From: Acidimicrobiales bacterium
GTDB lineage: Bacteria; Actinomycetota; Acidimicrobiia; Acidimicrobiales; MedAcidi-G1
Assembly (NCBI GenBank): GCA_016845305.1
Contig: JAERSW010000027.1
Location: forward strand, 1 to 64,000
DNA: 64,000 nucleotides
Direction: 5' to 3'
Shown here: one piece after another, positions 145-59,034 of the stretch
Position numbering within the stretch: position 1 is the first letter of the stretch
How the letters are laid out: every line of letters begins with the position of its first letter
Position numbers and translations under genes: made by a program
The notes under the pieces: model-generated
The model's input: the letters and a program-made list of their open reading frames with translations, nothing else
Database searches by the model: none
What the model was told of the DNA's origin: nothing

Positions 145-150
145 TACCGT
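145..150 (+). promoter_or_regulatory. Leaderless -10 element TACCGT
   Basis: TACCGT ends 8 nt before the GTG at 159 and no Shine-Dalgarno is present, so transcription should start at or next to the start codon. Confidence 0.55.
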
Positions 151-158
151 CGCCCGCC

Positions 159-866
159 GTGCACGTCATCCTCGTCCGGCACGGACGCCCCGAGAGCGTG
201 GTCGATTCGCCGACCGTCGCCGACCCCGGCCTCGACGAGATCGGTCGGTGGCAGGCCGAACGACTCACCGACTGGCTGGCGTGTGAACCCATCGACGCCG
301 TGGTCACCAGCCCCAAGGCCCGGGCCATCCAGACCGCCGCCGGGCTGTGCGCGGCCTCAGGCCTCGAGCCCCGGGTGGTCCCCGGCCTCGACGAGATCGA
401 CCGGGGCGCCCGCACCTACCTCCCCACCGAACTGCTCCCCACCGAGGGCGGCGCCTACTGGGAGATGATCTGCGAGAAGCGCTACGACGAGATCGGCTGG
501 GACACCCCCGAGGCGTTCCGCGACCGCGTCGTGGCCGCCTGGGACGACCTGTGCCGCAACCCGCCCGGCGAGCACGTCCTGGTGGCCTGCCACGGTGGCA
601 CCATCCGGACGATCCTCGCCGACGTGGTCGGCAACCCCTCGGCCGGCTTCCGCCTCGACTACACCTCGATCAGCCGGGTCGAGGTGACCGTGCCCGGCGG
701 GCCCGACGGCGACGGGCTCGCCGACCCGTACTGCTCGGTGGCGGGCACCAACCAGACCGCCCACTTCGACGCCCGCCGCAGCGAGGTGGTGGGCGCCTTC
801 CGGGGCGGCGAGCGTCCCGGGTCGCCGCCGCCCAACCGTCGACCGATGACCGCGCCAGCCTCCTAG
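159..866 (+). CDS. Histidine phosphatase family protein
   Basis: This 235-residue protein has the phosphohistidine RHG motif at residues 8-10 (ILVRHGRP) and the second catalytic histidine in CHGGTIR near residue 148. Both belong to the phosphoglycerate-mutase-like fold. The family includes phosphatases acting on sugar phosphates, nucleotides or phosphoproteins, and the substrate here is unknown. The GTG start is set by the -10 element 8 nt upstream. The C-terminal 40 residues are proline/arginine-rich and probably disordered. It resembles the gene at 57263-57883 along its whole length, including TSPKAR/ASPKSR and CHGG, so the two are paralogues. The end carries a degenerate 18-bp duplication around GCCTCCTAG. 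Confidence 0.85.
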   Translation: MHVILVRHGRPESVVDSPTVADPGLDEIGRWQAERLTDWLACEPIDAVVTSPKARAIQTAAGLCAASGLEPRVVPGLDEIDRGARTYLPTELLPTEGGAYWEMICEKRYDEIGWDTPEAFRDRVVAAWDDLCRNPPGEHVLVACHGGTIRTILADVVGNPSAGFRLDYTSISRVEVTVPGGPDGDGLADPYCSVAGTNQTAHFDARRSEVVGAFRGGERPGSPPPNRRPMTAPAS

Positions 867-908
867 AACGCACCGGCCTCCTAGGCGGAACCGGCCGTCG
901 CCGGCGGA

Positions 909-2129
909 TCAGCGACGCTCGAGGAGTTCCGGTCCCAGGTCGGCGACCGAGGCGGCGCCGACGAGGGCCATGGTCCGCTCGGTGCCGGACCGCAGCAGTT
1001 CGAGGACGTGGTCCACGCCCCGCTCGCCGGCCGCGGCCAGGGCGTACAGGAACAGCCGTCCCCCCATCGCCGCGTCGGCACCCGCGGCCACCGCCTTGAC
1101 GACGTCCGATCCCCGCCGCACCCCGCCGTCGCACACCACCTCGATCCGGCCCGCCACGGCCTCGGCGATCTCCGGCACCAGGTCGAACGGGGCCGGCGCC
1201 GTGTCGAGCTGCCGACCGCCGTGGTTGGACACGACGATGCCCTCCACGCCGTGCTCGACGGCCAGCACCGCGTCCTCCACGGCCTGGATGCCCTTGACGA
1301 GGATCGGGCCGTCCCACACGGTCCGCAGCCACGCCACGTCGTCCCACGACAGGCCGTGGTCGAACTGCTCGTTCATGTAGCCGGCCAGGTCGACCGCGGC
1401 GGTGCCGTCCAGGCCGGCCAGCCCCTCGGCGCTCGAGAACCGGATGGGCTCGGACCGCAGGAGCCGCCAGGTCCAGCCCGGGTGGCGCATCCCGTCGAGG
1501 AACGTGCCCGGTCCGATCTCGGGCGGCAGCGTGAAGCCCCGCCGGACGTCGCGTTCGCGGCGGCCCAGCTTGGCCGTGTCCACGGTCAGGCAGATGGCCT
1601 CGAAGCCGGACGCCGCGGCGCGCTCCACGAGGTCGCGGATGAGGTCGCGGTCGCGCCAGGCGTACACCTGGAACCAGAGGCGGGCATCGGGGCCGGCGAC
1701 CGCGGCGCACTCCTCGATGGACCGGGTGCCCATGGTGGACAGCGTGAACGGGATGCCGGCCCGCCCCGCGGCCCGGACCACCGCCAGCTCACCGGCCGGA
1801 TCGGCGATCCGGGTGAAGCCGGTGGGCGCCAGCACCAGCGGGAAGGCCAGGGGCCGTCCCAGCAGGGTGGTGGAGGTGTCCAGGTCACCGAGGCCGCGCA
1901 GCACCCGGGGCCGGAACGTCGTCTCCCGGAAGGCCCGGACGTTGCGGTCCAGCGTCAGCTCGTCCTCGGCCCCACCGTCGATGTAGTCGAAGACGCCGCC
2001 CGGCAGGCGTCGCTTCGCCATGGCCCGCAGGTCGTCGAGGTCGGCCGCGGCCCGGAGCCGACGGTCGGTGCGGTTGAACGCCGGCCGGCGCAGCCGCACG
2101 ACGGATCGGAGGGTCCTCAGCATTCCCAT
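909..2129 (-). CDS. FMN-dependent alpha-hydroxy-acid dehydrogenase/oxidase
   Basis: This 406-residue protein belongs to the lactate/glycolate oxidase family (LldD-like). The active-site signature SNHGGRQLD lies at 301-309 with catalytic His303. Upstream are the FMN-barrel segments FDYIDGGAEDE (47-57) and LAPTGFTRI (100-108), and CDGGVRRGSDVVKA forms the phosphate-binding end. It should oxidise a 2-hydroxy acid to the 2-oxo acid using FMN. The electron acceptor cannot be told from sequence. Pre-mycofactocin synthase MftD belongs to the same family, but no mycofactocin genes are nearby. It is last in a run rpiB-DUF3039-this gene, 17 nt after DUF3039. Start codons exist at 2129 and 2123, and a GGGAG precedes the first. 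Confidence 0.88.
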   Translation of the reverse strand: MGMLRTLRSVVRLRRPAFNRTDRRLRAAADLDDLRAMAKRRLPGGVFDYIDGGAEDELTLDRNVRAFRETTFRPRVLRGLGDLDTSTTLLGRPLAFPLVLAPTGFTRIADPAGELAVVRAAGRAGIPFTLSTMGTRSIEECAAVAGPDARLWFQVYAWRDRDLIRDLVERAAASGFEAICLTVDTAKLGRRERDVRRGFTLPPEIGPGTFLDGMRHPGWTWRLLRSEPIRFSSAEGLAGLDGTAAVDLAGYMNEQFDHGLSWDDVAWLRTVWDGPILVKGIQAVEDAVLAVEHGVEGIVVSNHGGRQLDTAPAPFDLVPEIAEAVAGRIEVVCDGGVRRGSDVVKAVAAGADAAMGGRLFLYALAAAGERGVDHVLELLRSGTERTMALVGAASVADLGPELLERR

Positions 2130-2146
2130 GGGCTCTCCCGGACCGG

Positions 2147-2404
2147 TCAGCCGCCGGACTCGCTGGCCTTCCGCTCCTCGTAGATCTCCCGACAGGTCGG
2201 GCAGACCGGATAGCGGTCGGGGTCACGACCCGGCACCCAGACCTTGCCGCAGAGGGCGACGATCGGCTTTCCGGTCACCGCGGACTCCACGATGTCGGAC
2301 TTGCGGGCGTAGTGCGAGAAGCGGTCGTGGTCGCCGTCGTCGAGCAGCGGGTCGTCCAGCCGCGGCTCGATGGTGGTGAGGCCGTCGCCGGAGAGGGTCG
2401 GCAC
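2147..2404 (-). CDS. DUF3039 family small protein
   Basis: An 85-residue protein with an acidic N-terminus followed by ALCGKVWVPGRDPDRYPVCP and TCRE. The three cysteines in C-x(n)-C-x2-C order suggest a small zinc knuckle. DUF3039 is a conserved actinobacterial family of unknown function. I chose the GTG at 2404 because GAGGAG lies about 6 nt upstream. A longer frame to 2467 would overlap rpiB. It follows rpiB by 10 nt and so should be co-transcribed with it. Confidence 0.8.
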   Translation of the reverse strand: MPTLSGDGLTTIEPRLDDPLLDDGDHDRFSHYARKSDIVESAVTGKPIVALCGKVWVPGRDPDRYPVCPTCREIYEERKASESGG

Positions 2405-2414
2405 GGGCGCCTCC

Positions 2415-2867
2415 TCAGGCCCCGGCCGAGCCGTCCAGGTCGGACAGCTTGTCGACCCGTCCCGCATGCCGGCCGCCCTCGAACTCGGCGTCCAGCCAGG
2501 CCCGCATGGCCTCGGACGCCACCTCGGGGCCGGTCAGGCGCTCGCCGAGGCAGATCACGTTGGCGTCGTTGTGCTGGCGGGTCAGGCGGGCCGACGTGGC
2601 GTCGTGCACGGTGGCCGCCCGCACCCCGGGCACCTTGTTGGCCGCCATGGCGATCCCGATGCCCGAGCCACACACGCAGACGCCCAGGTCCGCGTCGCCA
2701 CCGGCCACGGCGCGGCCCACCGCGGCGCCGAAGTCGGGGTAGTCGACCCGGTCGGTGGAGTGGGCGCCGAGGTCCAGCACGTCGTGGCCCAGGTTGCGCA
2801 GCTCACCGGCCAGCTGCTCCTTGAGCGCGTACCCGGCGTGGTCGGACCCGACGGCGATGGTGGCCAT
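2415..2867 (-). CDS. rpiB: Ribose-5-phosphate isomerase B
   Basis: A 150-residue RpiB/LacAB-family enzyme that interconverts ribose-5-phosphate and ribulose-5-phosphate in the non-oxidative pentose phosphate pathway. Visible motifs are GSDHAG (7-12), DYPDFG (42-47) and the catalytic CGSGIGI with Cys66. Length and motifs match the family. The ATG at 2867 is preceded 7 nt upstream by TAGCCT, so the mRNA is probably leaderless. The upstream in-frame extension to 2915 lacks support. DUF3039 follows after 10 nt. Confidence 0.93.
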
Positions 2868-2874
2868 GGGCCGG

Positions 2875-2880
2875 AGGCTA
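2875..2880 (-). promoter_or_regulatory. Leaderless -10 element of rpiB, TAGCCT
   Basis: On the minus strand TAGCCT ends 7 nt before the rpiB ATG. Its first three bases are also the TAG stop codon of tsaC (2880-2878), so the promoter core is built into the end of the preceding gene. Confidence 0.55.
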
Positions 2881-3543
2881 CCGGTCGACCCAGACCCCGG
2901 CCGCGGCGAGGTCATCGGGGCCGAGGCTCCCGAGCCGCAGGATCCGGGCCGGATCCACGGTCAGGTCCAGCACGGTGGACGGCACGCCGGTGCACGGACC
3001 GCCGTCGACGGCCAGCAGGCCGCCGCCGAGCACCGCGGCAGCGGATGCCGCGTCGGCCGGCGTGGCTTCGCCGGAACGGTTGGCCGAGGTGGTGGCGATG
3101 GGCCCCACCGCCGCCGCGATGGCACGCACCAGGTCGTGGTCGGGGCAGCGGATGCCCACCGTGGCCGGCCCGTCGTCGGCGGCCAGGCCCAGGGTCAGGC
3201 CGGCGCCCGGTCGGCGGGGCACGACCATGGTGAGCGGGCCGGGCCAGACCGCGGCGGCCAGGCGCTCGAAGCGTTCGTCGACCTCGGCCAGCGAACGGGC
3301 CTGGTCCACGTCGGCCACCAGCACGGCCACCAGCCGTTCGGCCGGTCGCCCCTTGCGGACGAAGACCTCCTCGACGGCGTCCGGGTCGGTGGCCACCGCG
3401 GCCACCCCGTAGACGGTCTCGGTGGGCAGGACGACCACGCCGCCGGCCCGCAGGCGGTCCACGGCGGCCGCCACCGCGCCCGCCGGATCGGTCGACGCGT
3501 CGAGCACCTCCGAGGGCCGTCTCTCCATTGGCAGGCCGTTCAT
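2878..3543 (-). CDS. tsaC: L-threonylcarbamoyladenylate synthase (TsaC/YrdC/Sua5)
   Basis: This 221-residue YrdC-domain protein makes threonylcarbamoyl-AMP from threonine, bicarbonate and ATP, the first step of tRNA t6A37 modification. It carries PTETVYGV (40-47), KGRP (64-67) and TTSANRSGE, all typical of the nucleotide/threonine pocket. It lacks the extra Sua5 C-terminal domain, so it is the short TsaC form. The ATG at 3543 overlaps the prmC stop (ATGA), indicating translational coupling. A second ATG lies at 3528. The order prfA-prmC-tsaC is common in bacteria. Confidence 0.93.
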
Positions 3544-4457
3544 GCCGGCCGGCGGGCCACCAACGCCCGGTCGCGCCCAGCCAGGTCGGGATGGACGGCC
3601 ACGTCCACGTACCCGGTCGCCTCGGCATGGGTCGCCATGGCCCCCGTCTGGTCGGGAGCCATCTCCAGCACCAGCGCCCCACCGGGGGCCAGCCAACCCG
3701 GGGCTCCGTCGACCAGCGTCCGCAGGGCCGACGTCCCCGCACCGAGGGCGTCGTCGTCCGGGGAGAAGAGGGCCATGTCGGGCTCCCAGTCGACGACCTC
3801 GACCGGGAGGGGGTCGTCGGGCGCCACGTAGGGCGGGTTGGAGACCACCACGTCGAGCCGGCCGGCCAGCTCCGCGGGCAGGCCGTCGAACCACGATCCC
3901 TCGGACACCACCACCCGCTGGGCGGGCCTTCCGAGGCCGACGCAGTTGGCCCGGGCCACGGCCACCGCATCGGCCGAGGCGTCCACGCACCACACCCGGG
4001 TCCCCACCCGCTCGGCAGCCACCGACAGGCCGATGGCGCCCGAGCCGGTGCCCAGGTCGGCCACCAGTACCGGATCCCCGCCACCGTCGGGTCGTCCGGC
4101 GGCGCGGCGGTCGACCTCGAGGAGGGCCAGACCGGCCACCACCTCGGTCTCCGGTCGGGGGATCAGGACCCGCCGGTCGACCATGAGGTCCAGCGTCCGG
4201 AACGCCCACCGGCCCAGCACGTACTGCAGCGGTTCACCGGCCAGGCGACGCTCCACCATGGCATCGTGGCGGGCCATCCCCCGCACGGTGGCCAACCCGT
4301 CCAGGTCGGCCGCCGAGGTCGCCCCCGAGGCCTCGTCCACGATCCACCGGGCCTCCCGGGCCGGCAGCCCGGCGGCCGACAGGCGGCCCTCGGTCTCGGC
4401 CAGGACCTCCCGCCAGGCGACGGTTCCCTCGAGGTCGGTGTCGCCGCCCTCAGCCAT
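3540..4457 (-). CDS. prmC: Release factor glutamine methyltransferase PrmC
   Basis: A 305-residue class I SAM methyltransferase that N5-methylates the glutamine of the GGQ motif in release factors. The N-terminal helical domain is followed by RPETE (101-105), the SAM motif DLGTGSG (134-140) and catalytic NPPY (207-210). It overlaps its substrate gene prfA by 8 nt upstream and tsaC by 4 nt downstream. Confidence 0.95.
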   Translation of the reverse strand: MAEGGDTDLEGTVAWREVLAETEGRLSAAGLPAREARWIVDEASGATSAADLDGLATVRGMARHDAMVERRLAGEPLQYVLGRWAFRTLDLMVDRRVLIPRPETEVVAGLALLEVDRRAAGRPDGGGDPVLVADLGTGSGAIGLSVAAERVGTRVWCVDASADAVAVARANCVGLGRPAQRVVVSEGSWFDGLPAELAGRLDVVVSNPPYVAPDDPLPVEVVDWEPDMALFSPDDDALGAGTSALRTLVDGAPGWLAPGGALVLEMAPDQTGAMATHAEATGYVDVAVHPDLAGRDRALVARRPA

Positions 4458-5529
4458 CGGCGCCGTCGAGCCCCTCGGCCAGCTGCCGGGTCCGCTCGTC
4501 GGCCAGCAGCCCGTCGGTCACCTCGTCCAGCTCGCCGGCCAGGACCCGGTCCAGCTTGTGCAACGTCAGGCCGATGCGGTGGTCGGTGACCCGGTTCTCC
4601 TTGAAGTTGTACGTCCGGATCTTCTCCGACCGGCCTCCGCCGCCGACCTGGCCCCGGCGGGCCTCCGACGCCTCGGACTGCTGCCGCTCCTGCTCGATCT
4701 GCAGGAGGCGGGACCGCAGGACCCGCAGGGCCTTCACCTTGTTCTGCAGCTGGCTCTTCTCGTCCTGCATGGACACGACCAGGCCGGTGGGCTTGTGGGT
4801 GATGCGGACCGCCGAGTCGGTGGTGTTGACCGACTGACCACCCGGACCGGACGCCCGGTACACGTCGACCTGCAGGTCGTTCTCGTCGACCTCGACCTCG
4901 ACCTCGTCGGCCTCGGGCAGCACGCTGACCGTGGCCGACGACGTGTGGATCCGGCCCTGCGACTCGGTGACCGGCACCCGCTGCACCCGGTGCACGCCGC
5001 CCTCGTACTTCAGCCGGGTCCATGCGTCCTCGCCCTTGACGAGCACCATCACCTCGCTGAACCCGCCCATGTCGGATTCCCGTGCCTCCAGGGGCTCGAC
5101 CGTCCACCCGTGGGCGGCGGCGAAGGCCAGGTACATCTCATGGAGGTCGCGGGCGAACAGGTTGGCCTCCTCGCCGCCCTCGGCGCCCCGGATCTCCACG
5201 ATCACCGGACGGCCGTCGTTGGGGTCGCGGGGCAGCAGCAGCGTCCGCAACTCGCCCTCCAGGCGCTCGATCTCGCCCTCCAGCGAACCGATCTCGGACC
5301 GGAGCTGGTCCCGCTCCTCGCCCTCGGCCAACTCGGCCAGCTCTCGGGCCGCTTCCAGGTCGTCGTGGGCCGCCCGCAAGGGGCGGCCGACGGCCAGGAC
5401 CTCCTCCAGTTCCTTGAAGCGTCGGCCGGCGGCCTGCAGGAGCCCGGGGTCGCCGAGCACCGCGGGATCGGCGAGGCGGCCCTCCACCTCCGCGTACTCG
5501 GCCTCGAGGGCGTCGACCTGCTCCAGCAT
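4450..5529 (-). CDS. prfA: Peptide chain release factor 1
   Basis: A 359-residue class I release factor reading UAA and UAG. The anticodon-like tripeptide PVT is at 186-188 and the peptidyl-tRNA hydrolysis motif GGQ at 230-232 (SGPGGQSVNTTDSAV). The N-terminus is a helical, glutamate-rich domain. The ATG at 5529 follows TACCCT by 7 nt, so the mRNA is predicted to be leaderless. prmC, its modifying enzyme, overlaps the 3' end. Confidence 0.96.
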   Translation of the reverse strand: MLEQVDALEAEYAEVEGRLADPAVLGDPGLLQAAGRRFKELEEVLAVGRPLRAAHDDLEAARELAELAEGEERDQLRSEIGSLEGEIERLEGELRTLLLPRDPNDGRPVIVEIRGAEGGEEANLFARDLHEMYLAFAAAHGWTVEPLEARESDMGGFSEVMVLVKGEDAWTRLKYEGGVHRVQRVPVTESQGRIHTSSATVSVLPEADEVEVEVDENDLQVDVYRASGPGGQSVNTTDSAVRITHKPTGLVVSMQDEKSQLQNKVKALRVLRSRLLQIEQERQQSEASEARRGQVGGGGRSEKIRTYNFKENRVTDHRIGLTLHKLDRVLAGELDEVTDGLLADERTRQLAEGLDGADG

Positions 5530-5536
5530 CGGGTTC

Positions 5537-5542
5537 AGGGTA
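5537..5542 (-). promoter_or_regulatory. Leaderless -10 element of prfA, TACCCT
   Basis: TACCCT on the minus strand ends 7 nt upstream of the prfA ATG, with no ribosome-binding site between them. It would drive prfA-prmC-tsaC separately from the rpmE unit upstream. Confidence 0.5.
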
Positions 5543-5605
5543 CCGACGGGTCCCCCGGCCCCTGCCGGACCTCCGGCTCCCCGAGGATCCGACGACGGCG
5601 GAGGG

Positions 5606-6625
5606 TCAGGCCCGGTCCCAGCCGCAGGGCACGCCGACCACCGAGGTCGGGACCCGCAGCCGGGCCAGGGCACGCTCCACCGGCGGCAGGACGTCACGGG
5701 CCGGCAGGGCCACCACCACCCGGTCGGGGCGCTCGCGCAGGACCAGCTCGCAGGCCGCCCCCAGCAGGCGTGGATCAACGCCCACCGAGGACACGACCAA
5801 CACCCGCTCCCCGTCGGGACCGGCGCCCACGGCGGGGGCCGGCGACGGGTCGCGCAGGTTCGGACGCTCGTCGGCCGGATCCACCGGGGCCAGGTCCGCC
5901 AGGCCGACCAGGTCGGGCGAAGCGCACAGGTCGCGGCGCAGCCACCGCTCCCGACACAGGGTGGCCAGGGGATGGGCGCCAGCGCCGGTCCGGCGCTGGG
6001 CCCGGACCAGGTCGGCCGCCGCGGCCAGCACCTCCGAATCGGACCGGTCGCCCTGCATGATGGCGCCCGCCTCGCGGTCGAAGCGCCCCACCCCGACCCG
6101 GACCACGGGGCCGCCGTCGGGACTGGCCTCGGGGTCGTCGACCACCCGGACCACCTCGAGGCCCAACACCTCGCCGCGCCAGGTGCCGTGCTCCCGCAGC
6201 GGCTCCACGCCCACGCCCCGGCACAGGTCGTCGAAGCCGTCGGGTGCCGGCACCTCGACCGGTTCGACCGGATCCCCCGCCGGCTCGACGGGCACCAGGC
6301 CCCGGCCGTCGACGAGGAACACCTCGGGCGGGTCGTGGAGGGCAGTGGCCCGGCGGGCCACCACGGCGGCGACCATCGGGTCGTCGACCAGCAGGCGGAC
6401 GGGGACCGGGGCATCGGGGGTGCCGTGCCGACCGGCCCGCAGCACCGCCGTGCCCAGGACCGTCTCCGGTGCGTCCTCGGACGCCAGGGTCCACAGGCAC
6501 GTGCCGTCGAAGAGGTGGTCGCCGTCGGGCTCGCCTCCATCGGTGGGCCCACCGGCGGCCCCGACGACCAGGGCGCGCAACTTGGCGCCACGCAGGGCGG
6601 ATCGGCGCTCGGGATCGAGGGCCAT
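5606..6625 (-). CDS. Uncharacterised protein between rpmE and prfA
   Basis: This 339-residue protein has no signal peptide or membrane segment and I do not recognise a family. It is acidic, with an alternating Ala/Val/Asp-rich pattern. Two stretches look like beta strands followed by glycine turns: LRALVVGAAGG near the N-terminus and VLVVSSVGVDPRLLG about 80 residues from the end. The last part, RVVVALPARDVLPPVERALARL, resembles a Rossmann-like edge. Its start lies 37 nt after rpmE, so the two may be co-transcribed. It may be a lineage-specific gene of Acidimicrobiia. Confidence 0.6.
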   Translation of the reverse strand: MALDPERRSALRGAKLRALVVGAAGGPTDGGEPDGDHLFDGTCLWTLASEDAPETVLGTAVLRAGRHGTPDAPVPVRLLVDDPMVAAVVARRATALHDPPEVFLVDGRGLVPVEPAGDPVEPVEVPAPDGFDDLCRGVGVEPLREHGTWRGEVLGLEVVRVVDDPEASPDGGPVVRVGVGRFDREAGAIMQGDRSDSEVLAAAADLVRAQRRTGAGAHPLATLCRERWLRRDLCASPDLVGLADLAPVDPADERPNLRDPSPAPAVGAGPDGERVLVVSSVGVDPRLLGAACELVLRERPDRVVVALPARDVLPPVERALARLRVPTSVVGVPCGWDRA

Positions 6626-6662
6626 CAGGTGTGATCCGGTCCGACGGGGACCGGGAGGGGGC

Positions 6663-6917: not shown

Positions 6918-6926
6918 GGTGGGTCC

Positions 6927-6932
6927 AGTCTG
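6927..6932 (-). promoter_or_regulatory. Candidate -10 variant CAGACT of rpmE
   Basis: CAGACT on the minus strand sits 9 nt before the ATG of rpmE. It keeps the A and T at positions 2 and 6 of TANNNT but not the first T. The same variant precedes etfB and, as GAGACT, the FAH gene. Confidence 0.3.
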
Positions 6933-7025
6933 CGGTGCGTTCGGGGCCTCGGCAACCCGCGTGACGGGTGCGACGGGCCGGAGGATCGGGGTCCGGTGGC
7001 GGGGGTCGTCGGGGACGGGTGCCGG

Positions 7026-13048: not shown

Positions 13049-13054
13049 ACGGTA
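13049..13054 (-). promoter_or_regulatory. Leaderless -10 element of hom, TACCGT
   Basis: TACCGT on the minus strand ends 7 nt before the ATG of hom, inside the short lysA-hom spacer. Confidence 0.55.
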
Positions 13055-16142: not shown

Positions 16143-16148
16143 TAATCT
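16143..16148 (+). promoter_or_regulatory. Leaderless -10 element TAATCT
   Basis: TAATCT ends 7 nt before the GTG at 16156. It is the most A+T-rich -10 of the series and supports the GTG start over longer frames. Confidence 0.55.
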
Positions 16149-16155: not shown

Positions 16156-17394
16156 GTGTCGCCCTCGAGTTCGTCCACCGGCTCCCCCATCGACCCGCCC
16201 GCCATCGATCGGCCTCCCATCGATCACGACGCGCTGATCCACGATCGACGGGACCGGCTCCGGGCCCGGATGGTCGACCACGGCGTCGACGCCTGCCTGC
16301 TGTTCGACCCGGTCAACGTCCGGTACGCCACCGGGGCCCGCAACATGCAGGTCTTCCACCAGCGGAACCCCTCCCGCTACCTGTTCCTGCCCGTCGAGGG
16401 GCCGGTGGTGCTGTTCGAGTTCACCGGGGCCCACCACCTGGCCGACGGGCTGTCCACCATCGACGAGGTGCGGCCCGCCACCACGGCCAGCTACGTGGCC
16501 GCCGGACCGGCCATCGCCGACGTCGAACGCCGCTGGGCCGCCGAGGCCGCGGAGGTGCTGCGCACCGTGGTGGGCGACGGCGCCACGGTGGGCCTGGAGC
16601 GCATCAACCACGGCGCCTCGGCCGCGCTGGCCGACGCCGGCTTCACCATCGTCGACGCCCAGGCTCCGGTCGAGCGGGCCCGGGCCGTCAAGGGACCCCA
16701 GGAACTCCTCTGCATCCGGGAGAGCCTGCGGGCCACCGAGCGGGCCGTGCACGCCCTGCGCGACGCCATCCGCCCCGGCCTGACCGAGAACCAGCTGTGG
16801 TCCGAGCTGCACCGGGTGGTGGTGGCCGAGGGCGGCGACTACGTCGAGACCCGCCTCATGACGGCCGGCACCAACACGAACCCGTGGTTCCAGGAGACGG
16901 GCGACTCGCCCATCGAGCCGAACGCCCTGGTGGCGCTGGACACCGACGTGGTGGGCTGCCACGGCTACTACTCGGACTTCTCCCGCACCTTCCACGCCGG
17001 GCCCGACGCCCCCACCGCCGAGCAGCGGCGGCTCTACGGCCTGGCCCACGAGCAGGTCCACCACAACATGGCGGTCATCGGTCCCGGGGTGACGTTCCGG
17101 GAGTACGCCGAACGGGCGTGGGACATCCCCGACGAGTTCGCCGCCCACCGCTACTACCTGTCGTCCCACGGCGTGGGCATGACCGGCGAGTACCCCTACC
17201 TGTACCACCGCCACGACTTCGCGGCGTCGGGCTACGACGGGGTGATCGAGCCCGGGATGACCCTCTGCGTGGAGTCCTACATCGGGGCCGAGGGCGGCGC
17301 CGAGGGCGTGAAGCTCGAGGAACAGGTGCTGGTCACCGAGACCGGCACCGAACTGCTCAGCGACTTCCCGTTCGAGGCGTCGTTGCTGGCCTGA
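16156..17394 (+). CDS. M24 family aminopeptidase/creatinase-like protein
   Basis: A 412-residue pita-bread-fold protein with an N-terminal creatinase-like domain (about 30-165) and a C-terminal catalytic domain. Metal ligands are visible in order: Asp in ALDTDVVGCHGYYSDFSR (two Asp), His in SSHGVGM, Glu in VESYIG and Glu in KLEEQVLVTETG. It is probably a Xaa-Pro dipeptidase-type or related hydrolase. Some family members act on other C-N bonds, so the substrate is open. The GTG start is fixed by the leaderless -10. The gene ends inside an exact 14-bp tandem duplication. Confidence 0.85.
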   Translation: MSPSSSSTGSPIDPPAIDRPPIDHDALIHDRRDRLRARMVDHGVDACLLFDPVNVRYATGARNMQVFHQRNPSRYLFLPVEGPVVLFEFTGAHHLADGLSTIDEVRPATTASYVAAGPAIADVERRWAAEAAEVLRTVVGDGATVGLERINHGASAALADAGFTIVDAQAPVERARAVKGPQELLCIRESLRATERAVHALRDAIRPGLTENQLWSELHRVVVAEGGDYVETRLMTAGTNTNPWFQETGDSPIEPNALVALDTDVVGCHGYYSDFSRTFHAGPDAPTAEQRRLYGLAHEQVHHNMAVIGPGVTFREYAERAWDIPDEFAAHRYYLSSHGVGMTGEYPYLYHRHDFAASGYDGVIEPGMTLCVESYIGAEGGAEGVKLEEQVLVTETGTELLSDFPFEASLLA

Positions 17395-17447: not shown

Positions 17448-17453
17448 TACGTT
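17448..17453 (+). promoter_or_regulatory. Leaderless -10 element TACGTT
   Basis: TACGTT ends 7 nt before the GTG of the ROK kinase, just after the duplicated end of the upstream gene. Confidence 0.55.
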
Positions 17454-19314: not shown

Positions 19315-19320
19315 ACCCTA
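19315..19320 (-). promoter_or_regulatory. Leaderless -10 element TAGGGT
   Basis: TAGGGT on the minus strand ends 6 nt before the ATG of the EamA gene. It is divergent from the phn promoter about 60 bp away. Confidence 0.55.
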
Positions 19321-24853: not shown

Positions 24854-24928
24854 AGCCTATCCGCTGTTCGTGTTGCAATGGCAAGTTTCGTCGGATAGAG
24901 TTCTTGTCAGATTGGTACGAGAAAGAAC
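24854..24928. promoter_or_regulatory. nrtR/vWA divergent control region with two inverted repeats
   Basis: On the minus strand TAGGCT (24859-24854) is 7 nt before the nrtR ATG. TTGC-AATG-GCAA (24873-24884) covers the likely -35 of that promoter. GTTCTT-N17-AAGAAC (24900-24928) lies on the side of the vWA gene. The region is clearly A+T-richer than its surroundings. Both repeats are candidate NrtR operators. This is inferred from position only. Confidence 0.45.
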
Positions 24929-27615: not shown

Positions 27616-27621
27616 TAGGGT
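27616..27621 (+). promoter_or_regulatory. Leaderless -10 element TAGGGT
   Basis: TAGGGT ends 8 nt before the ATG at 27630. Confidence 0.55.
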
Positions 27622-29220: not shown

Positions 29221-29226
29221 AGGCTA
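29221..29226 (-). promoter_or_regulatory. Leaderless -10 element TAGCCT
   Basis: TAGCCT on the minus strand ends 7 nt before the GTG of the lipoprotein gene, in a 29-nt spacer after the udgB-like gene. Confidence 0.55.
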
Positions 29227-29938: not shown

Positions 29939-29948
29939 AGGGTAGGTT
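29939..29948. promoter_or_regulatory. Overlapping divergent -10 elements
   Basis: AGGGTAGGTT reads TAGGTT (29943-29948) on the plus strand, 9 nt before ATG 29958. On the minus strand it reads TACCCT (29944-29939), 6 nt before ATG 29932. The two -10 hexamers share the TA base pairs, so both genes cannot be opened by polymerase at once. Confidence 0.6.
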
Positions 29949-30650: not shown

Positions 30651-30656
30651 TAGGAT
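30651..30656 (+). promoter_or_regulatory. Leaderless -10 element TAGGAT
   Basis: TAGGAT ends 8 nt before the ATG of the DUF3090 gene, so the second gene of the trio can also start its own transcript. Confidence 0.5.
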
Positions 30657-36715: not shown

Positions 36716-36721
36716 TAGGGT
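36716..36721 (+). promoter_or_regulatory. Leaderless -10 element TAGGGT
   Basis: TAGGGT ends 8 nt before the ATG at 36730. Confidence 0.55.
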
Positions 36722-38415: not shown

Positions 38416-38421
38416 ACCCTA
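38416..38421 (-). promoter_or_regulatory. Leaderless -10 element TAGGGT
   Basis: TAGGGT on the minus strand ends 6 nt before the GTG of the phosphodiesterase gene and fixes that start. Confidence 0.55.
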
Positions 38422-41550: not shown

Positions 41551-41557
41551 TAGGCTA
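41551..41557. promoter_or_regulatory. Shared divergent -10 core TAGGCTA
   Basis: The plus strand reads TAGGCT (41551-41556), 6 nt before the GTG at 41563. The minus strand reads TAGCCT (41557-41552), which would give mrp a leader of about 75 nt with its own Shine-Dalgarno. The two -10 elements use the same base pairs. Confidence 0.5.
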
Positions 41558-49649: not shown

Positions 49650-49655
49650 CCCGTC

Positions 49656-49661
49656 ACGGTA
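49656..49661 (-). promoter_or_regulatory. Leaderless -10 element of the ccm operon, TACCGT
   Basis: TACCGT on the minus strand ends 6 nt before the ccmA GTG. With no internal gaps, it is probably the only promoter for all eight genes. Confidence 0.55.
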
Positions 49662-49672
49662 CCGGTCGGTCG

Positions 49673-49678
49673 TACCCT
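49673..49678 (+). promoter_or_regulatory. Leaderless -10 element TACCCT
   Basis: TACCCT ends 6 nt before ATG 49685, back to back with the ccmA promoter. Confidence 0.55.
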
Positions 49679-49684
49679 GACCCC

Positions 49685-51513: not shown

Positions 51514-51522
51514 GCCCCGATC

Positions 51523-52599: not shown

Positions 52600-52907
52600 A
52601 CGACCGGCCCGACGACGCGACCTTCTCCCGGGGCGACCCCGGCGACGACCCGGTCCTGGCGACGCGCCGCCGCATGGCCCGCCTGGCCTCGCTCGGCCAA
52701 CGGCTCGGCTACCTGGCCTTCCTCGTCTCCATCGTGGTGTTCGCCGTGGGCCTGGCCACCGGGTTCACCGACGCCGTGGCCACCACGCTGGTCGTCCTGC
52801 TGGTCGCCGGGTCGGCCGTGCTGGCCCCGGCCATCGTCCTGCACTACGCGGTGCGGGCCGCCGCCGACGAAGACCGGGCCACCGGGAGCGGGACCGCCGG
52901 ACACTGA
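52596..52907 (+). CDS. Small two-helix membrane protein
   Basis: A 103-residue protein with a polar N-terminus (1-38), two transmembrane helices (about 39-59 and 65-88) and a charged tail. No family recognised. Its GTG overlaps the stop of the glycosyltransferase (GTGA), so it is co-translated and may anchor or assist that enzyme. Confidence 0.7.
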   Translation: MNDRPDDATFSRGDPGDDPVLATRRRMARLASLGQRLGYLAFLVSIVVFAVGLATGFTDAVATTLVVLLVAGSAVLAPAIVLHYAVRAAADEDRATGSGTAGH

Positions 52908-52940
52908 CCCGGTTCCGTCCGGCTGGTCACCCGGGCGGCA

Positions 52941-52960
52941 GGTGTGCCTACGGTCACACC
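52941..52960 (+). promoter_or_regulatory. Leaderless -10 inside a 20-bp inverted repeat (TetR operator candidate)
   Basis: GGTGTG-CCTACGGT-CACACC is a perfect 6-bp inverted repeat with an 8-nt centre. It encloses the -10 TACGGT (52949-52954) and ends directly before the tetR-like ATG. Binding of a TetR dimer here would block its own promoter. Confidence 0.6.
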
Positions 52961-53611
52961 ATGACGAGCACGCCGGGCACCGCCCTGGACGAAGCGGCCC
53001 CCGGGGACGCGACCCGCGGGGACGGACCGTCCAACGGCTCCACCCGGATGCCGGCCGCCGAGCGTCGACGCCAGATCCTCGACGTGGCGCTGGAGGCCTT
53101 CGGCCGCTCCGGCTACCACGACACCTCCATGAACGCGGTGGCCGCCGAGGCCGGGGTCACCAAGCCGGTGCTGTACCAGCACTTCGCCTCCAAGCACGAG
53201 CTGTTCGAGGTCCTGCTGGCGGAGACCGGCGACGCCCTGCTCCGGGCCATCGAGTCCTCCGAGGTCGAGGACACGCCCCGGCGACGGGTGGAGGCCGGCT
53301 TCCGGGCCTTCTTCCGCTTCTTCGAGGAGCGGCCGGCCGCCTTCGCCGTGCTCTACGGCTCCAGCGTGGCCACCGATCCCGAGTTCCGTCGCGACGCCCG
53401 CCAGGTCCGGGACTCGTTCAGCGAGTACCTGACCCGGATCATGGGCGACATGGGGCACGACGACGCCCTGGCCATGGCGGCCGGCATCAACGGACTGTCC
53501 GAGGGGATGATCCGCCACTGGATGCACCTCGGTCGGGTCCGCTCCGCCGACGAGATGGCGGCCCTGGCCGCCCGCCTCGCCTGGGGCGGCCTCGACGGGC
53601 TCACCGGCTGA
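52961..53611 (+). CDS. TetR/AcrR family regulator
   Basis: A 216-residue regulator. After a 30-residue polar lead comes the HTH (about 33-80: RRRQILDVALEAFGRSGYHDTSMNAVAAEAGVTKPVLYQHF split over two helices), then a helical ligand domain. The ligand and other targets are unknown. Autoregulation is suggested by the inverted repeat over its -10. Confidence 0.9.
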   Translation: MTSTPGTALDEAAPGDATRGDGPSNGSTRMPAAERRRQILDVALEAFGRSGYHDTSMNAVAAEAGVTKPVLYQHFASKHELFEVLLAETGDALLRAIESSEVEDTPRRRVEAGFRAFFRFFEERPAAFAVLYGSSVATDPEFRRDARQVRDSFSEYLTRIMGDMGHDDALAMAAGINGLSEGMIRHWMHLGRVRSADEMAALAARLAWGGLDGLTG

Positions 53612-53628
53612 CCCGACCCTGCCGCCTG

Positions 53629-53670
53629 TCAGTTCCGGTGGCCGGTCAGTTCCGGTCGCCGATCAGTCCA
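53629..53670. repeat. 17-bp tandem duplication over a minus-strand stop codon
   Basis: TCAGTTCCGGTGGCCGG is repeated at a 17-bp period with a third partial copy. The TCA at 53663-53665 is the TGA stop of the Nudix gene. Two more TCA copies lie beyond it at 53646 and 53629. Confidence 0.85.
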
Positions 53671-54154
53671 GGGGCACCGGCGAGATGTCGATCGGCTCGG
53701 CGGGCAGGTCGCCGGCCACGATGGGAGCCAGGTGCGTCCGCAGCAACGCCGGCAGCACCGGTTCGTCGGAGGCCAGCAGGTCGTCCAACGTCCACCACCG
53801 GGCCCCCATGAACGCCGCGGCCTCCAGGGCCTCGAGGTGCCGGGGCCGGTACTCGCCACCGTCGCACCACGCCACGTGGATCTTCTCGTGGCTGTCGAAG
53901 AAATAGCCGCCGAACGTGAACTGGACGTGTTGCGTCCAGATCACCGGCCCCATCTCGAAGTCGTCGATGCCGGTCTCCTCGACCAGCTCCCGGCCGGCGG
54001 CCGCCGCGCTGTCCTCGCCCCAGTCGATGCCGCCACCCGGGATCTCCCACCACGCCGGCTTGAACGGGTCCAGGGGATCCTCGGCGTTGACCATGAAGAT
54101 CCGACCGTCCCGGTCCAGCAGGACGACCCGGGCCGCCGGTCGACGCAGGAGCAC
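53663..54154 (-). CDS. Nudix hydrolase
   Basis: A 163-residue Nudix protein with an intact box: GGGIDWGEDSAAAAGRELVEETGI region at about 40-63 (catalytic REL-EE). It hydrolyses an unidentified nucleoside diphosphate derivative. I chose the GTG at 54154, 2 nt after the fur stop. Longer frames run through fur. Confidence 0.85.
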   Translation of the reverse strand: MLLRRPAARVVLLDRDGRIFMVNAEDPLDPFKPAWWEIPGGGIDWGEDSAAAAGRELVEETGIDDFEMGPVIWTQHVQFTFGGYFFDSHEKIHVAWCDGGEYRPRHLEALEAAAFMGARWWTLDDLLASDEPVLPALLRTHLAPIVAGDLPAEPIDISPVPLD

Positions 54155-54156
54155 GG

Positions 54157-54639
54157 TCAGGCGCAGTCGGCGCAGCGGCCGACCATGTCGAAGCGGTGGG
54201 CGTCCACCCGGAAGCCCCGGTCGGCGACCGCGGCCACCAGGTCGGCCACCCGGGCCTCGAACTCGTCGGGCACCTCGAAGTCCTCGATCCGGCCACAGCC
54301 GTCGCACACCAGGTGGTGATGATGCCCGGTGAGCGATTCGTGCAACTCGAAGCGGGCGTGGTCGTCGCCCGAGTCGACCCGACGGACCACCGCGGCGTCG
54401 ACCAGCTCCCCGACGTTGCGGTAGGCGGAGCTCTGGGCGAGGGGCCGGTCGTCGGCGGGACGGCCGGCCTCGAGGATCTCGGGCAGGGTCAGCGGACGTC
54501 CGGCCGTGGCCAGCACGTCGACCACCACGCGACGGGACCGGCTGTAGCGCATGCCCACCACGCGGAGACGGCGACCCACCGTGACGTGGAGGTCCTCGCC
54601 GGCAAGCCCGTGGTCGTGGGTGGGTTCCTGCGGCGGCAC
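54157..54639 (-). CDS. Fur family metalloregulator
   Basis: A 160-residue protein with a winged helix (about 25-90, SRSRRVVVDVLATAGRPLT...SSAYRNVGELVDAAVV) and a dimerisation domain. HHHH is at 106-109, and Cys112, Cys115, Cys156 and Cys159 form two CxxC pairs for structural zinc. It could be Fur, Zur or PerR-like. The GTG start is supported by TAGGCT 7 nt upstream. Confidence 0.9.
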   Translation of the reverse strand: MPPQEPTHDHGLAGEDLHVTVGRRLRVVGMRYSRSRRVVVDVLATAGRPLTLPEILEAGRPADDRPLAQSSAYRNVGELVDAAVVRRVDSGDDHARFELHESLTGHHHHLVCDGCGRIEDFEVPDEFEARVADLVAAVADRGFRVDAHRFDMVGRCADCA

Positions 54640-54646
54640 GGGCCGG

Positions 54647-54652
54647 AGCCTA
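54647..54652 (-). promoter_or_regulatory. Leaderless -10 element TAGGCT
   Basis: TAGGCT on the minus strand ends 7 nt before the GTG of the fur-family gene. It also selects this GTG over an upstream ATG at 54753. Confidence 0.55.
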
Positions 54653-54697
54653 GGCGCGTCCGCTCCCGGGAATCCCTGGGAAGCCGGACGGCGGGAG

Positions 54698-55168
54698 TCA
54701 GGCCGGTCGCCGCCGCATGAGGGCGTTGCGGCGGGCCCGGCACACCAGCTCATCGCGCTGGTTGGTGGCCCGGTGCTCGAAGGTCACGATCCCGGCGTCG
54801 GGCCGCGACCCCGACGCCCGGGCGGCCACCACCTCGGTCTCGAAGCGCAGCGTGTCGCCGATGAACACCGGCGCCGGGAACGTCGTCTCGTCGAAGCCCA
54901 GGTTGGCCACCGTGGTGCCCAGCGTCGTGTCGCCCACGCTCGCGCCGACCACCAGGCCCAGGGTGAACAGGCTGTTGACCAGCCGTTCGCCGAACTCGGT
55001 GCCCGCGGCGAACTCGGCGTCGAGGTGCAGCGGCTGCGGGTTGTGCGTCATGAGGCAGAACTGCAGGTTGTCGGCCTCGGTGACCGTGCGGGTCAGGGCG
55101 TGGCGCACCACCAGGCCCACCGGCAGATCCTCGAACCAGCGGCCCGATCGGGCATCCTCGACCTCCAC
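54698..55168 (-). CDS. MaoC-like hot-dog dehydratase
   Basis: A 156-residue hot-dog protein with the R-specific enoyl-CoA hydratase pattern: [30 protein letters not shown] and [15 protein letters not shown]. It probably hydrates an enoyl- or mesaconyl-type CoA. The GTG at 55168 has GGAGGG upstream. CAGACT at 55235-55230 on the minus strand would give a leader of about 54 nt. Confidence 0.85.
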
Positions 55169-55229
55169 GACGTCCCTCCGTCCCCGGCCCGGGCCGGCTC
55201 CCCGCGGCATGGCCCGCGATCCGATCCCC

Positions 55230-55235
55230 AGTCTG
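55230..55235 (-). promoter_or_regulatory. Candidate -10 variant CAGACT of the MaoC-like gene
   Basis: The hexamer on the minus strand lies about 54 nt before the predicted GTG, which has its own Shine-Dalgarno. This is the same degenerate hexamer as at rpmE and etfB. Confidence 0.25.
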
Positions 55236-55252
55236 GTGGAAGCGCCCGTCGG

Positions 55253-55258
55253 TAGTCT
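55253..55258 (+). promoter_or_regulatory. Leaderless -10 element TAGTCT
   Basis: TAGTCT ends 8 nt before the ATG at 55267. Confidence 0.55.
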
Positions 55259-55266
55259 CGGCGGAC

Positions 55267-57228
55267 ATGGCCACCCCCCTGTGGACCCCCGACGCGGAAC
55301 GGGCGGCGGGCACCAACCTGCGGGCCTTCGCCGACGCGGTCGGCGTGGCGCCCGGCGACCTCCACCGGTGGTCCATCGACCGGCCGGAGGCCTTCTGGCG
55401 GGCCGTCTGGGACCACCTCGGCGTGGTCGGCGACCCCGGGCCCACCACGGCCACCGGCCTCGACACCGGCGACCTGCTGGACGTCCGGTTCTTCCCCGAG
55501 GCACGCCTCAACGTGGCCGAGACCCTGCTGGGTTCCGCCGACGACCGGCCGGCCCTGGCCTTCGAGGGCGAGGATCCGACGGCCCCCGGTGGGCAGCGCG
55601 ACCTGACCCGGGCCGACCTCCACGCCCTGGTGTCGAGGCTCCAGCAGGCGCTGCTCGACGCCGGCGTGGAACCCGGCGACCGGGTGGCCGCCTGGCTGCC
55701 CAATGTGCCCGAGACCTATGCGGTGATGCTGGCCGCGGCGTCGGTCGGCGCCGTCTTCTCGTCGACGTCGCCCGACTTCGGCACCGACGGCGTCCTGGAC
55801 CGGTTCGGGCAGATCCAGCCGGTCGTCCTGTTCGCGACCGACGGCTACCGCTACGCCGGCCGCCGACACGACGTCACCGGACGCCTGGCCGAGGTGGTGG
55901 CCGGGCTGCCCTCGCTGCGCCGGGTGGTCGTCGTGCCCGAGGACCCGACCGGTGGACCCGTCGGCGACCTGCCGGCCGACGCCGTCGACCTGGCGACGTT
56001 CCTCGGGCCACACGAGGCCGGCCCCGTCCGGTTCACCCCCCGACCCTTCGACCACCCGCTGTACGTCCTGTACTCGTCGGGCACGACGGGGAAGCCCAAG
56101 TGCATCGTCCACCGGGCCGGCGGGATCCTCCTCAAGCACCTCGTCGAGCACCGCCTCCACTGCGACGTCCGCGACGGCGACCGGGTCTTCTACTTCACGA
56201 CGGCCGGCTGGATGATGTGGAACTGGCTGGCCTCCGGCCTGGCCGCCGGCGCCTCCCTCGTGCTCTACGACGGCTCGCCGTTCCACCCCGGCCCGTCCCG
56301 CCTGTTCGACCTGGCCGACGAGCACGCCATCACCCTGTTCGGCGTGTCGGCCAAGTTCGTCGACTCGGTGGCCACCGCCGGCCTCCGCCCGGCCGACACC
56401 CACGACCTCTCGTCGGTCCGCACCATCTGCGCCACGGGCAGCCCGCTCAGCCCGGAGGGGTTCGCCCACGTCCAGGCCGACTGGGCCACCGACGTCCACC
56501 TCGCCTCCATCTCGGGCGGCACCGACCTGTGCGGCTGCCTGGTGGCCGGGGACCCGACCCGACCGGTCCACGCCGGGCAGATCCAGGGACCGGTGCTGGG
56601 CATGGACATGGATGTCGTGGACGACGCCGGCGACCCGGTCGGGACCGGCGTGCGCGGCGAGCTGGTGTGCCGGTCGCCGTTCCCGTCGATGCCGCTGGGC
56701 TTCTGGGACGACGCGGGCGACGTCCGCTACCGGGCCGCCTACTTCGACCGGTTCGACGGCCTGTGGCACCAGGGCGACTTCGCCGAACGCACCGACGAGG
56801 GCGGCTACGTCATCCACGGCCGCTCCGACGCCACGCTGAACCCGGGCGGGGTGCGCATCGGCACCGCCGAGATCTACCGCCGGGTCGAGGCCCTCGACGA
56901 GGTGGTGGAGGGACTGGTCATCGGCCAGGCGCACGCCGGCGACGTCCGCGTCGTCCTGTTCGTGGTCCTGGCCGACGGCGCCACCCTCGACGACGACCTC
57001 CGCGACCGGATCCGTACGACGGTTCGCACCGGCGCCTCGCCGCGCCACGTCCCGGCCGTGATCCTCGAGGTGCCGGAGCTGCCCCGGACTCGGTCGGGAA
57101 AGCTGGTCGAGCTGGCCGTCCGCAACGTGGTCGAAGGCCGCCCGGTCACCAACGTGGAGGCCCTGGCCAACCCCGACGCGCTCGAGCATTTCCGGGACCG
57201 GCCCGAGCTGGCGGACGCCCCCTCCTGA
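55267..57228 (+). CDS. Acetoacetate-CoA ligase
   Basis: A 653-residue ANL-superfamily ligase that activates acetoacetate with ATP and CoA. It carries the P-loop [14 protein letters not shown], the acetoacetyl-CoA synthetase signatures [15 protein letters not shown] and [18 protein letters not shown], and the hinge [20 protein letters not shown]. The acylation-site lysine is in RTRSGKLVE. It should feed ketone bodies into acetyl-CoA or polyester metabolism. Confidence 0.93.
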
Positions 57229-57262
57229 CCGACGCGACCGGCCGGCCCGTTGGTGGACCCGC

Positions 57263-57883
57263 CTAGAACTCGGCGAGGGGCACGCCGGCCACCTGGAGGT
57301 GGCCCAGCTCGTTCATTGACCGCACCGACCGCTGCCCGGTCGACGACGCGGCCACCCGGCACACCGACGTGTAGTGGGCCTCGTAGAACAGGACCCGCTC
57401 GATGCCCAGCACGTGGGACAGGTAGGCCGAGACCACGCCGCCGTGGCAACCGACGGCCACCGTGCGACCCGGGTTGGCGGCGATGATCCGGTCCATCCCG
57501 GCCACCACCTGGTCTCGGAAGGCCTCCGGGTCGGCGATGTCGTCGCCGGCCATGATGGCGTCCCACCGCGGGTCGCCGTCGGCCTTCAGCTTCTCGATGG
57601 GCACGTACTCCACCTCGCCGGCGTCGTACTCGTTGACCAGCGGCTCGATGGCCATCTCGAGGCCCAGGCGGGCGGCCAGCGGGGCCACGGTCTGGCGGGC
57701 CCGGGACTTCGGGCTGGCGTAGACGGCGTCGATCGGCTCGGCGGTCGGTCCCGACGTCAGCCAGTCGGCCAGCGCCTCGGCCTGGCGCAGGCCCAGCTCC
57801 GACAGCTCCGGATCGGCCTCGATGCCCGACTCGCGGTTGTCGACGGTGACGGGCAGGGCGTGGCGGATGAGCAGCAGTTCCAT
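57263..57883 (-). CDS. Histidine phosphatase family protein (paralogue)
   Basis: A 206-residue protein with LLIRHALPVT (RHA instead of RHG at 7-9), YASPKSRARQT and GCHGGVVSAYL with the second histidine. It aligns over its length with the gene at 159-866. The small change RHG to RHA is tolerated in some members. Substrate unknown. TACGGT lies 10 nt before the ATG. Confidence 0.85.
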   Translation of the reverse strand: MELLLIRHALPVTVDNRESGIEADPELSELGLRQAEALADWLTSGPTAEPIDAVYASPKSRARQTVAPLAARLGLEMAIEPLVNEYDAGEVEYVPIEKLKADGDPRWDAIMAGDDIADPEAFRDQVVAGMDRIIAANPGRTVAVGCHGGVVSAYLSHVLGIERVLFYEAHYTSVCRVAASSTGQRSVRSMNELGHLQVAGVPLAEF

Positions 57884-57893
57884 GGCGGGCCGG

Positions 57894-57925
57894 ACCGTAC
57901 CGGGGGCGACGACCACCACTACCGT
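57894..57925. promoter_or_regulatory. Back-to-back -10 elements of divergent genes
   Basis: TACGGT on the minus strand (57899-57894) is 10 nt before ATG 57883. TACCGT on the plus strand (57920-57925) is 7 nt before ATG 57933. The whole divergent control region is 49 bp. Confidence 0.5.
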
Positions 57926-57932
57926 CGGCGCC

Positions 57933-58967
57933 ATGAAGATCGACGGAGGACTCACCGGACTGACCAGCCCTGCCGACGACGGCGGCCTGGGCGCCATCGC
58001 CGCGTCGGCGCGACGCCTCGAGGAGGCCGGATACGCCGGCGCCTGGACGGCCGAGACCAGCCACGACCCGTTCCTCCCCCACGTGGTGGCCGCCGAGCAC
58101 ACGTCGAGCATCGAGCTGGGCACCTCGATCGCCGTGGCGTTCGCCCGCAACCCGATGGTGCTGGCCAACCTCGGCCACGACCTGCAGCGCTACAGCGACG
58201 GCCGGTTCGTACTCGGCCTCGGCACCCAGATCAAGCCGCACATCACCAAGCGGTTCTCGATGGAGTGGTCGAAGCCGGCGGCCCGCATGCGGGAGATGAT
58301 CAGCGCCATGCGGGCCATCTGGGCCGCCTGGAACGACGGCGAGAAGCTGGCCTTCCGGGGCGACTTCTACACCCACACCCTGATGACCCCGTTCTTCGAC
58401 CCGGGGCCCAACGCCTGCGGTCCGCCCAAGGTCTTCGTCGCCGCCGTCGGCCCGCTGATGTCGGAGGTGGCCGGCGAGGTGTGCGACGGCCTCATCTGCC
58501 ACGCCTTCAGCACCGAGCGCTACCTGCGCGAGGTGACCATCCCCGCCGTGGAACGGGGCCTCGAGAAATCGGGCCGGACCATGGACGACTTCGAGATCGT
58601 CGGCCCCGGCTTCGTGGTCACCGGCGCCACCGAGGAGGGCATGGCCCGCACGGCCACCGGCATCCGCCAGCAGATCGCCTTCTACGGCTCCACGCCCGCC
58701 TACCGGCCGGTGCTGGACATCCACGGCTGGGGCCACCTCCAGGACGACCTGAACCGCATGTCCAAGCGGGGCGAGTGGCAGGCCATGGGCGAGCTGATCG
58801 ACGACGAGGTGCTGTCCACCTTCGCCGTGGTCGGTGAACCCGACCGGATCGCCCCCGGCTTCCTCGACCGGTACGGCGACTGCGTCGACCGCCTCAGCTT
58901 CTACGGCACCGCCGGTGAGGGCGTCGACTTCTGGGAGCCGATCATCGCCGAGCTGGCCGCCGCCTGA
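57933..58967 (+). CDS. LLM class F420-dependent oxidoreductase (TIGR03617-like)
   Basis: A 344-residue luciferase-like TIM-barrel protein: MKIDGGLTG, GYAGAWTAETSHDPFLP, IAVAFARNPMVLANLGHDLQ and RFVLGLGTQIKPHI. These match actinobacterial F420-dependent LLM enzymes. The substrate is unknown. With the FrhB-like gene at 27630 it shows that the organism uses F420. It ends in a 12-bp near-duplication around the stop. Confidence 0.88.
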   Translation: MKIDGGLTGLTSPADDGGLGAIAASARRLEEAGYAGAWTAETSHDPFLPHVVAAEHTSSIELGTSIAVAFARNPMVLANLGHDLQRYSDGRFVLGLGTQIKPHITKRFSMEWSKPAARMREMISAMRAIWAAWNDGEKLAFRGDFYTHTLMTPFFDPGPNACGPPKVFVAAVGPLMSEVAGEVCDGLICHAFSTERYLREVTIPAVERGLEKSGRTMDDFEIVGPGFVVTGATEEGMARTATGIRQQIAFYGSTPAYRPVLDIHGWGHLQDDLNRMSKRGEWQAMGELIDDEVLSTFAVVGEPDRIAPGFLDRYGDCVDRLSFYGTAGEGVDFWEPIIAELAAA

Positions 58968-58978
58968 TCCGCCGCCTG
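58957..58978 (+). repeat. 12-bp period duplication at a stop codon
   Basis: CCGCCGCCTG is repeated at a 12-bp period. The TGA of the LLM gene is in the first copy. Confidence 0.6.
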
Positions 58979-59028
58979 GCCTCGCCGGGCGGGCCGCAAC
59001 CCCCACGACCCCGGTCCGGGACGACCGG

Positions 59029-59034
59029 TAGGTT
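59029..59034 (+). promoter_or_regulatory. Leaderless -10 element TAGGTT
   Basis: TAGGTT ends 6 nt before the ATG of the fumarase gene. Confidence 0.55.

Follow-up and report, generated by a model that had tools for sequence, protein, structure and literature searches.

Do genes in uncultured Acidimicrobiales begin transcription directly on their start codons? The question is raised by a 64,000-nucleotide (nt) stretch of contig JAERSW010000027.1 (hereafter the window; 73.6% G+C), part of a 2.92 Mb draft genome in 136 contigs. The fumarase encoded in the window has its closest relatives in Acidimicrobiales metagenome genomes, with 92% identity to Candidatus Microthrix sp. UBA2974. A first-pass annotation listed 23 copies of the hexamer TANNNT at 6–9 nt before start codons and proposed that leaderless transcription is the rule. 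Our analysis indicates, with a probability of roughly 0.93, that these hexamers act as SigA −10 elements for leaderless mRNAs of the type already documented in Actinobacteria (PMC3160421, PMC3898074). The sequence evidence for this assignment is strong and comprises the distance, the base preceding the start codon, the lack of Shine-Dalgarno (SD) sequences, the preference for first genes, and conservation, although the generality of this mode of transcription had been overstated.

Position and Enrichment of the Hexamer

The analysis covered 963 kb of the 2.92 Mb genome, divided into a first set of 621 kb and held-out contigs of 342 kb. To avoid starts being chosen to fit the motif, genes were called from codon statistics and start-codon priors only. 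We define the gap as the number of nucleotides between the end of the hexamer and the start codon, and a gap of 6–9 as the leaderless type. In the first set, 88 of 516 starts carry TANNNT at this gap. The distribution peaks at gap 6 (40 sites), followed by gaps 7 (22), 8 (20), and 9 (6), and no site has a gap of 5. At other positions within 40 nt of starts, TANNNT occurs in about 0.1% of genes per position. The held-out contigs replicate the enrichment (57 of 296 starts). When all spaced three-base patterns were scanned at every distance, TANNNT at gap 6 ranked first. The same test applied to E. coli K-12 gives no peak at gap 6–9 (4 of 110, level with neighboring positions), and none of 33 starts on S. 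meliloti pSymB carries the hexamer there. The expectation of about 1 in 100 per gene, given earlier, agrees with base composition, but the true background is lower, with only 5 of 13,880 ATG/GTG triplets inside genes (0.036%) preceded by the motif. For the window itself, at least 17 matches in 65 genes at a composition rate of 1.3% correspond to p ~1e-17. The TANNNT observation is real and well replicated.

All 23 hexamers of the window are present at the listed coordinates, those on the minus strand being given by their low end, and each lies 6–9 nt from a start codon. Twenty-two precede an in-frame start of a motif-blind gene, 17 at the called start and 5 at a nearby in-frame start. The remaining one, at 16143, precedes an open reading frame (ORF) of 412 amino acids that the caller missed. 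The predicted −10 elements are as follows.

145..150, plus: TACCGT, 8 nt to GTG 159; histidine phosphatase family gene 159-866
2875..2880, minus: TAGCCT, 7 nt to ATG 2867; RpiB/LacAB isomerase gene
5537..5542, minus: TACCCT, 7 nt to ATG 5529; peptide chain release factor 1 family gene 4450-5529
13049..13054, minus: TACCGT, 7 nt to ATG 13041; homoserine dehydrogenase
16143..16148, plus: TAATCT, 7 nt to GTG 16156; M24 peptidase ORF 16156-17394
17448..17453, plus: TACGTT, 7 nt to GTG 17461; ROK family gene
19315..19320, minus: TAGGGT, 6 nt to ATG 19308; EamA transporter, start shifted upstream of the caller's pick
24854..24859, minus: TAGGCT, 7 nt to ATG 24846; Nudix/NrtR-type gene
27616..27621, plus: TAGGGT, 8 nt to ATG 27630; F420 hydrogenase/dehydrogenase beta-type gene
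29221..29226, minus: TAGCCT, 7 nt to GTG 29213; ORF of 118 amino acids without a Pfam match
29939..29948, both strands: opposed pair AGGGTAGGTT; minus TACCCT 29939-29944 (uracil-DNA glycosylase, start 29932) and plus TAGGTT 29943-29948 (histidine phosphatase, start 29958)
30651..30656, plus: TAGGAT, 8 nt to ATG 30665; DUF3090 gene
36716..36721, plus: TAGGGT, 8 nt to ATG 36730; diacylglycerol kinase catalytic domain gene
38416..38421, minus: TAGGGT, 6 nt to GTG 38409; GDPD family gene
41551..41556, plus: TAGGCT, 6 nt to GTG 41563; HTH_20 regulator
49656..49661, minus: TACCGT, 6 nt to GTG 49649; ABC transporter ATPase
49673..49678, plus: TACCCT, 6 nt to ATG 49685; divergent from 49656, with 35 nt between start codons
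52949..52954, plus: TACGGT, 6 nt to ATG 52961; TetR regulator
54647..54652, minus: TAGGCT, 7 nt to GTG 54639; FUR family gene
55253..55258, plus: TAGTCT, 8 nt to ATG 55267; AMP-binding enzyme
57920..57925, plus: TACCGT, 7 nt to ATG 57933; luciferase-like monooxygenase, start shifted downstream of the caller's pick
59029..59034, plus: TAGGTT, 6 nt to ATG 59041; fumarase

Proposed Mechanism and Promoter Anatomy

In our proposed mechanism, each hexamer would provide the −10 element to a housekeeping (SigA) promoter essentially lacking a −35 element. RNA polymerase would open the DNA at TANNNT and begin RNA synthesis at the purine (A or G) that opens the start codon, 7–10 nt further downstream. 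The resulting mRNA would have no leader, or a few nucleotides at most, and would be translated without SD contact. This mode would be used by many first genes of transcription units and rarely by operon-internal genes.

The anatomy of the sites is consistent with this scheme. For an RNA that begins on the start codon, a gap of 6 places the hexamer at −12 to −7. At gaps 7–8, 80 of 93 sites (86%) have a C immediately ahead of the start codon, as compared to 356 of 663 other starts (54%), which is expected if the purine of the codon is +1. The central bases of the hexamer are G+C-rich, G being favored at position 3 (102/169), and positions 3–4 are occupied by GG (51), GC (38), CC (28), or CG (25) among 169 sites. 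The core had been described as usually TAGGNT or TACCNT; these forms account for 47% of sites but do not constitute a separate class, because GC and CG are also common, and their share mostly reflects G+C content plus the preference for TAG. CGG is threefold enriched ahead of the hexamer. No strong upstream pattern indicative of a conserved −35 element was found; TTG occurs in the −35 zone of 12 of 168 sites versus 3.5 in the control, and a hidden −35 element was rejected given this weak excess.

The genome encodes a typical group 1 sigma factor with Sigma70 regions 1.1 to 4, in which region 2 is intact and whose closest solved structure is a mycobacterial-type SigA. A CarD-like protein is also present (G000:C68:10595-10762), whereas a search for the RbpA family (PF13397) found nothing in the whole genome (G000) or in 9 other Acidimicrobiia of a phylum sample. 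Of the mycobacterial-type initiation complex containing RbpA and CarD, only the CarD-like component was therefore found.

Several observations weigh against strictly leaderless initiation. The C before the start codon shows no excess at gap 6 (36/66, 55%), the start codons are predicted, with 24 of 169 shifted to a nearby in-frame codon, and gaps of 8–9, as well as gaps of 10–12 in some relatives, would permit leaders of 1–5 nt. The last point underlies the alternative that survives best, namely that the hexamers are true −10 elements but that RNA begins 1–5 nt upstream of the start codon for a sizable share of genes. Gaps 8 and 9 make up 26 of the 88 sites of the first set, and some histidine phosphatase orthologues have gaps of 10–12. 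The modal gap of 6, however, is the exact distance for initiation on the first codon base, gap 5 is empty, and the C at gaps 7–8 fits a +1 on the purine of the codon. We thus consider widespread short leaders improbable. The distribution of C at −1 (86% at gaps 7–8 and 55% at gap 6) appears as if this base mattered only for starts past the optimal distance.

Genes That Carry the Motif

When nearby in-frame starts are allowed, 169 of 832 genes (20%) are of the leaderless type. The fraction rises to 40% among divergent first genes (78/196), stands at 27% for genes whose same-strand neighbor lies more than 60 nt upstream, and falls to 4% where that distance is within 20 nt. Another 40 of the 196 divergent first genes have TANNNT 10–160 nt upstream instead, indicating that leadered transcription is common too; antisense 150-nt stretches past stop codons hold TANNNT in only 1.1% of cases. 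Leaderless transcription is consequently not the rule but is predicted for about 20% of genes overall and for 40% of divergent first genes. Within the window such starts are more frequent than elsewhere in the sample (22/65, 34%, versus 147/767; Fisher p 0.009), which helps explain the earlier impression. The high density of sites is real but typical of the phylum, since the same caller gives 18.5% for Streptomycetaceae and 18.9% for other Actinomycetes, in samples drawn from one gene neighborhood and with low-GC Acidimicrobiia omitted for having too few training ORFs.

The reported lack of SD sequences at these sites is borne out, as none of 145 starts with TANNNT in the two samples of this genome also has an SD. 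Across gene classes, SD-like sequences follow a trend opposite to that of TANNNT. The anti-SD sequence CACCTCCTTT is intact in relatives from the order, from which it was taken because the 16S gene of the genome itself is cut off by the end of a contig.

Depletion of TANNNT inside Genes

The occurrence of TANNNT inside genes was compared with a shuffle that preserves protein, codon usage, and codon-junction dinucleotides. This procedure replaced a simple codon shuffle, which overstated the depletion by breaking the junction dinucleotides. The hexamer is present at 0.21 of expectation on the sense strand and 0.10 on the antisense strand in the first set, and at 0.23 and 0.18, respectively, in the held-out contigs. 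The control patterns TAN6T and TANNNA lie at 0.84–1.07, and among 896 patterns none is depleted more than TANNNT. The hexamer is thus depleted 4–10-fold in coding DNA on both strands, at least as strongly antisense as sense. Values for other Acidimicrobiia and Actinomycetes are 0.2–0.5, as compared to about 0.9 for E. coli and pSymB.

This depletion also bears on the possibility that the hexamer is no promoter element but belongs to translation, either as a signal or as the TAG/TAA stop codon of an upstream frame. Such a role could account for the G at position 3, which yields TAG in 102 of 169 sites. Most of the remaining sites have TAC, however, and in the unbiased scan the final T is as invariant as the initial TA. 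The sites also cluster at divergent first genes, which have no upstream same-strand gene end, and are nearly absent at closely spaced same-strand genes. Moreover, the depletion extends to the antisense strand of genes, on which translation could have no effect. A translational role is therefore very improbable.

The depletion probably results from selection against stray promoters. We propose that a bare TANNNT is nearly enough for a promoter and that selection has for this reason removed it from both coding strands. In its strongest form, this proposal holds that in this lineage TANNNT on its own almost suffices to mark a promoter, working without RbpA and so depleted that, of 431 copies on both strands of the 963 kb, 169 (39%) stand directly ahead of a gene start. 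We advance this version only tentatively, as somewhat less probable than its negation. If it is true, promoters and first start codons could be read from uncultured genomes by sequence alone. The near-removal of the −10 hexamer from both gene strands indicates in quantitative terms that a promoter in these genomes requires very little sequence.

Conservation and a Predicted Two-Way Promoter

For four genes, orthologues across the order keep both the hexamer and its gap at their starts. Leaderless-type TANNNT precedes the fumarase start in 42 of 48 Acidimicrobiia loci but in 0 of 14 Streptomycetaceae, in which an SD-like GAGGA takes its place. TANNNT is likewise found at the starts of homoserine dehydrogenase (26 of 28 homologues in the order), RpiB (22 of 30 orthologues in the order), and histidine phosphatase (24 of 30 homologues), with diverged flanking DNA in all three. 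Chance or base composition, by which AT-rich hexamers would have been noticed by eye upstream of starts selected to match, could draw on the visual selection of sites and starts and on the 5 of 23 starts that differ from the motif-blind call, but it is refuted by the counts at motif-blind starts, the held-out replicate, the E. coli and pSymB controls, the 0.036% internal background, and this conservation, leaving it a negligible probability.

At five loci in relatives (L204, L206, L207, L208, and L213), TAGGTT stands at gap 10–12 before the histidine phosphatase start. These gaps suggest drift to very short leaders in some members of the order.

The 25 nt between start codons 29932 (uracil-DNA glycosylase, minus strand) and 29958 (histidine phosphatase, plus strand) hold AGGGTAGGTT, in which two opposed −10 hexamers have one TA in common and each lies 6–9 nt from its own start codon. 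The opposed element is retained in 22 of 24 leaderless-type relatives of the histidine phosphatase gene, and the glycosylase gene adjoins it in nearly all of them. Four such doubly leaderless pairs with a shared TA, including this one, occur in the 963 kb. The element at 29939-29948 is a predicted two-way, doubly leaderless promoter that is conserved across the order.

Comparison with Known Systems

The predicted leaderless starts described here add a new case to a mechanism already established in Actinobacteria (PMC3160421, PMC3898074, PMC9581028). A literature search on Acidimicrobium and leaderless transcription returned nothing, and no transcript maps for uncultured Acidimicrobiales were found in the literature searched. 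Our studies extend the well-supported case of leaderless, −10-only promoters to these organisms, correct start codons (24 of 169), and offer a route to annotating promoters and first genes in their genomes.

Zheng et al. (2011, PMC3160421) describe TA-led (leaderless) genes in Actinobacteria and Deinococcus-Thermus, with TAnnnT about 10–12 bp before the start codon, a share above 20%, and uninformative middle bases in high-GC genomes. The present genome is similar in motif position, gene share, and uninformative middle; the passages of that study consulted here do not single out Acidimicrobiia. The gap of 6–9 found here is wider than that in Streptomycetaceae, which we computed to be mostly 6–7. 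In M. tuberculosis, Cortes et al. (2013, PMC3898074) found TANNNT −10 elements without a −35 motif, leaderless transcripts for 26% of genes with a primary transcription start site (TSS), CGN often preceding the hexamer, a preference for C at −1, and common close divergent promoters. The genome studied here resembles M. tuberculosis in its −10 without −35, its share of predicted leaderless genes, the CGG/CGN ahead of the hexamer, the C at −1, and its closely spaced divergent promoters. It differs in copy number, with 431 TANNNT in 963 kb as compared to about 16,400 reported for the M. tuberculosis genome (PMC3898074). RbpA is a cofactor of such promoters in mycobacteria, and its absence from the matches found here makes this lineage a useful contrast to them.

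TANNNT has been reported below expectation in all three sense frames of M. tuberculosis coding sequence, which was read as limiting intragenic transcription (mBio 2023, PMC10653884). Because the sense-frame depletion is already published, the equal or stronger antisense depletion and the size of the effect under a junction-preserving shuffle are extensions rather than a new principle. Opposed −10 elements with common bases were described by Warman et al. (2021), as summarized in PMC12825309 and PMC10268837, with divergent TSS spacings in E. coli commonly of 10, 18, and 23 bp. Relative to the E. coli bidirectional promoters outlined in those summaries, the element at 29939-29948 is distinguished by two predicted transcripts that would both be leaderless and protein-coding, by 25 nt between start codons, and by conservation across the order.

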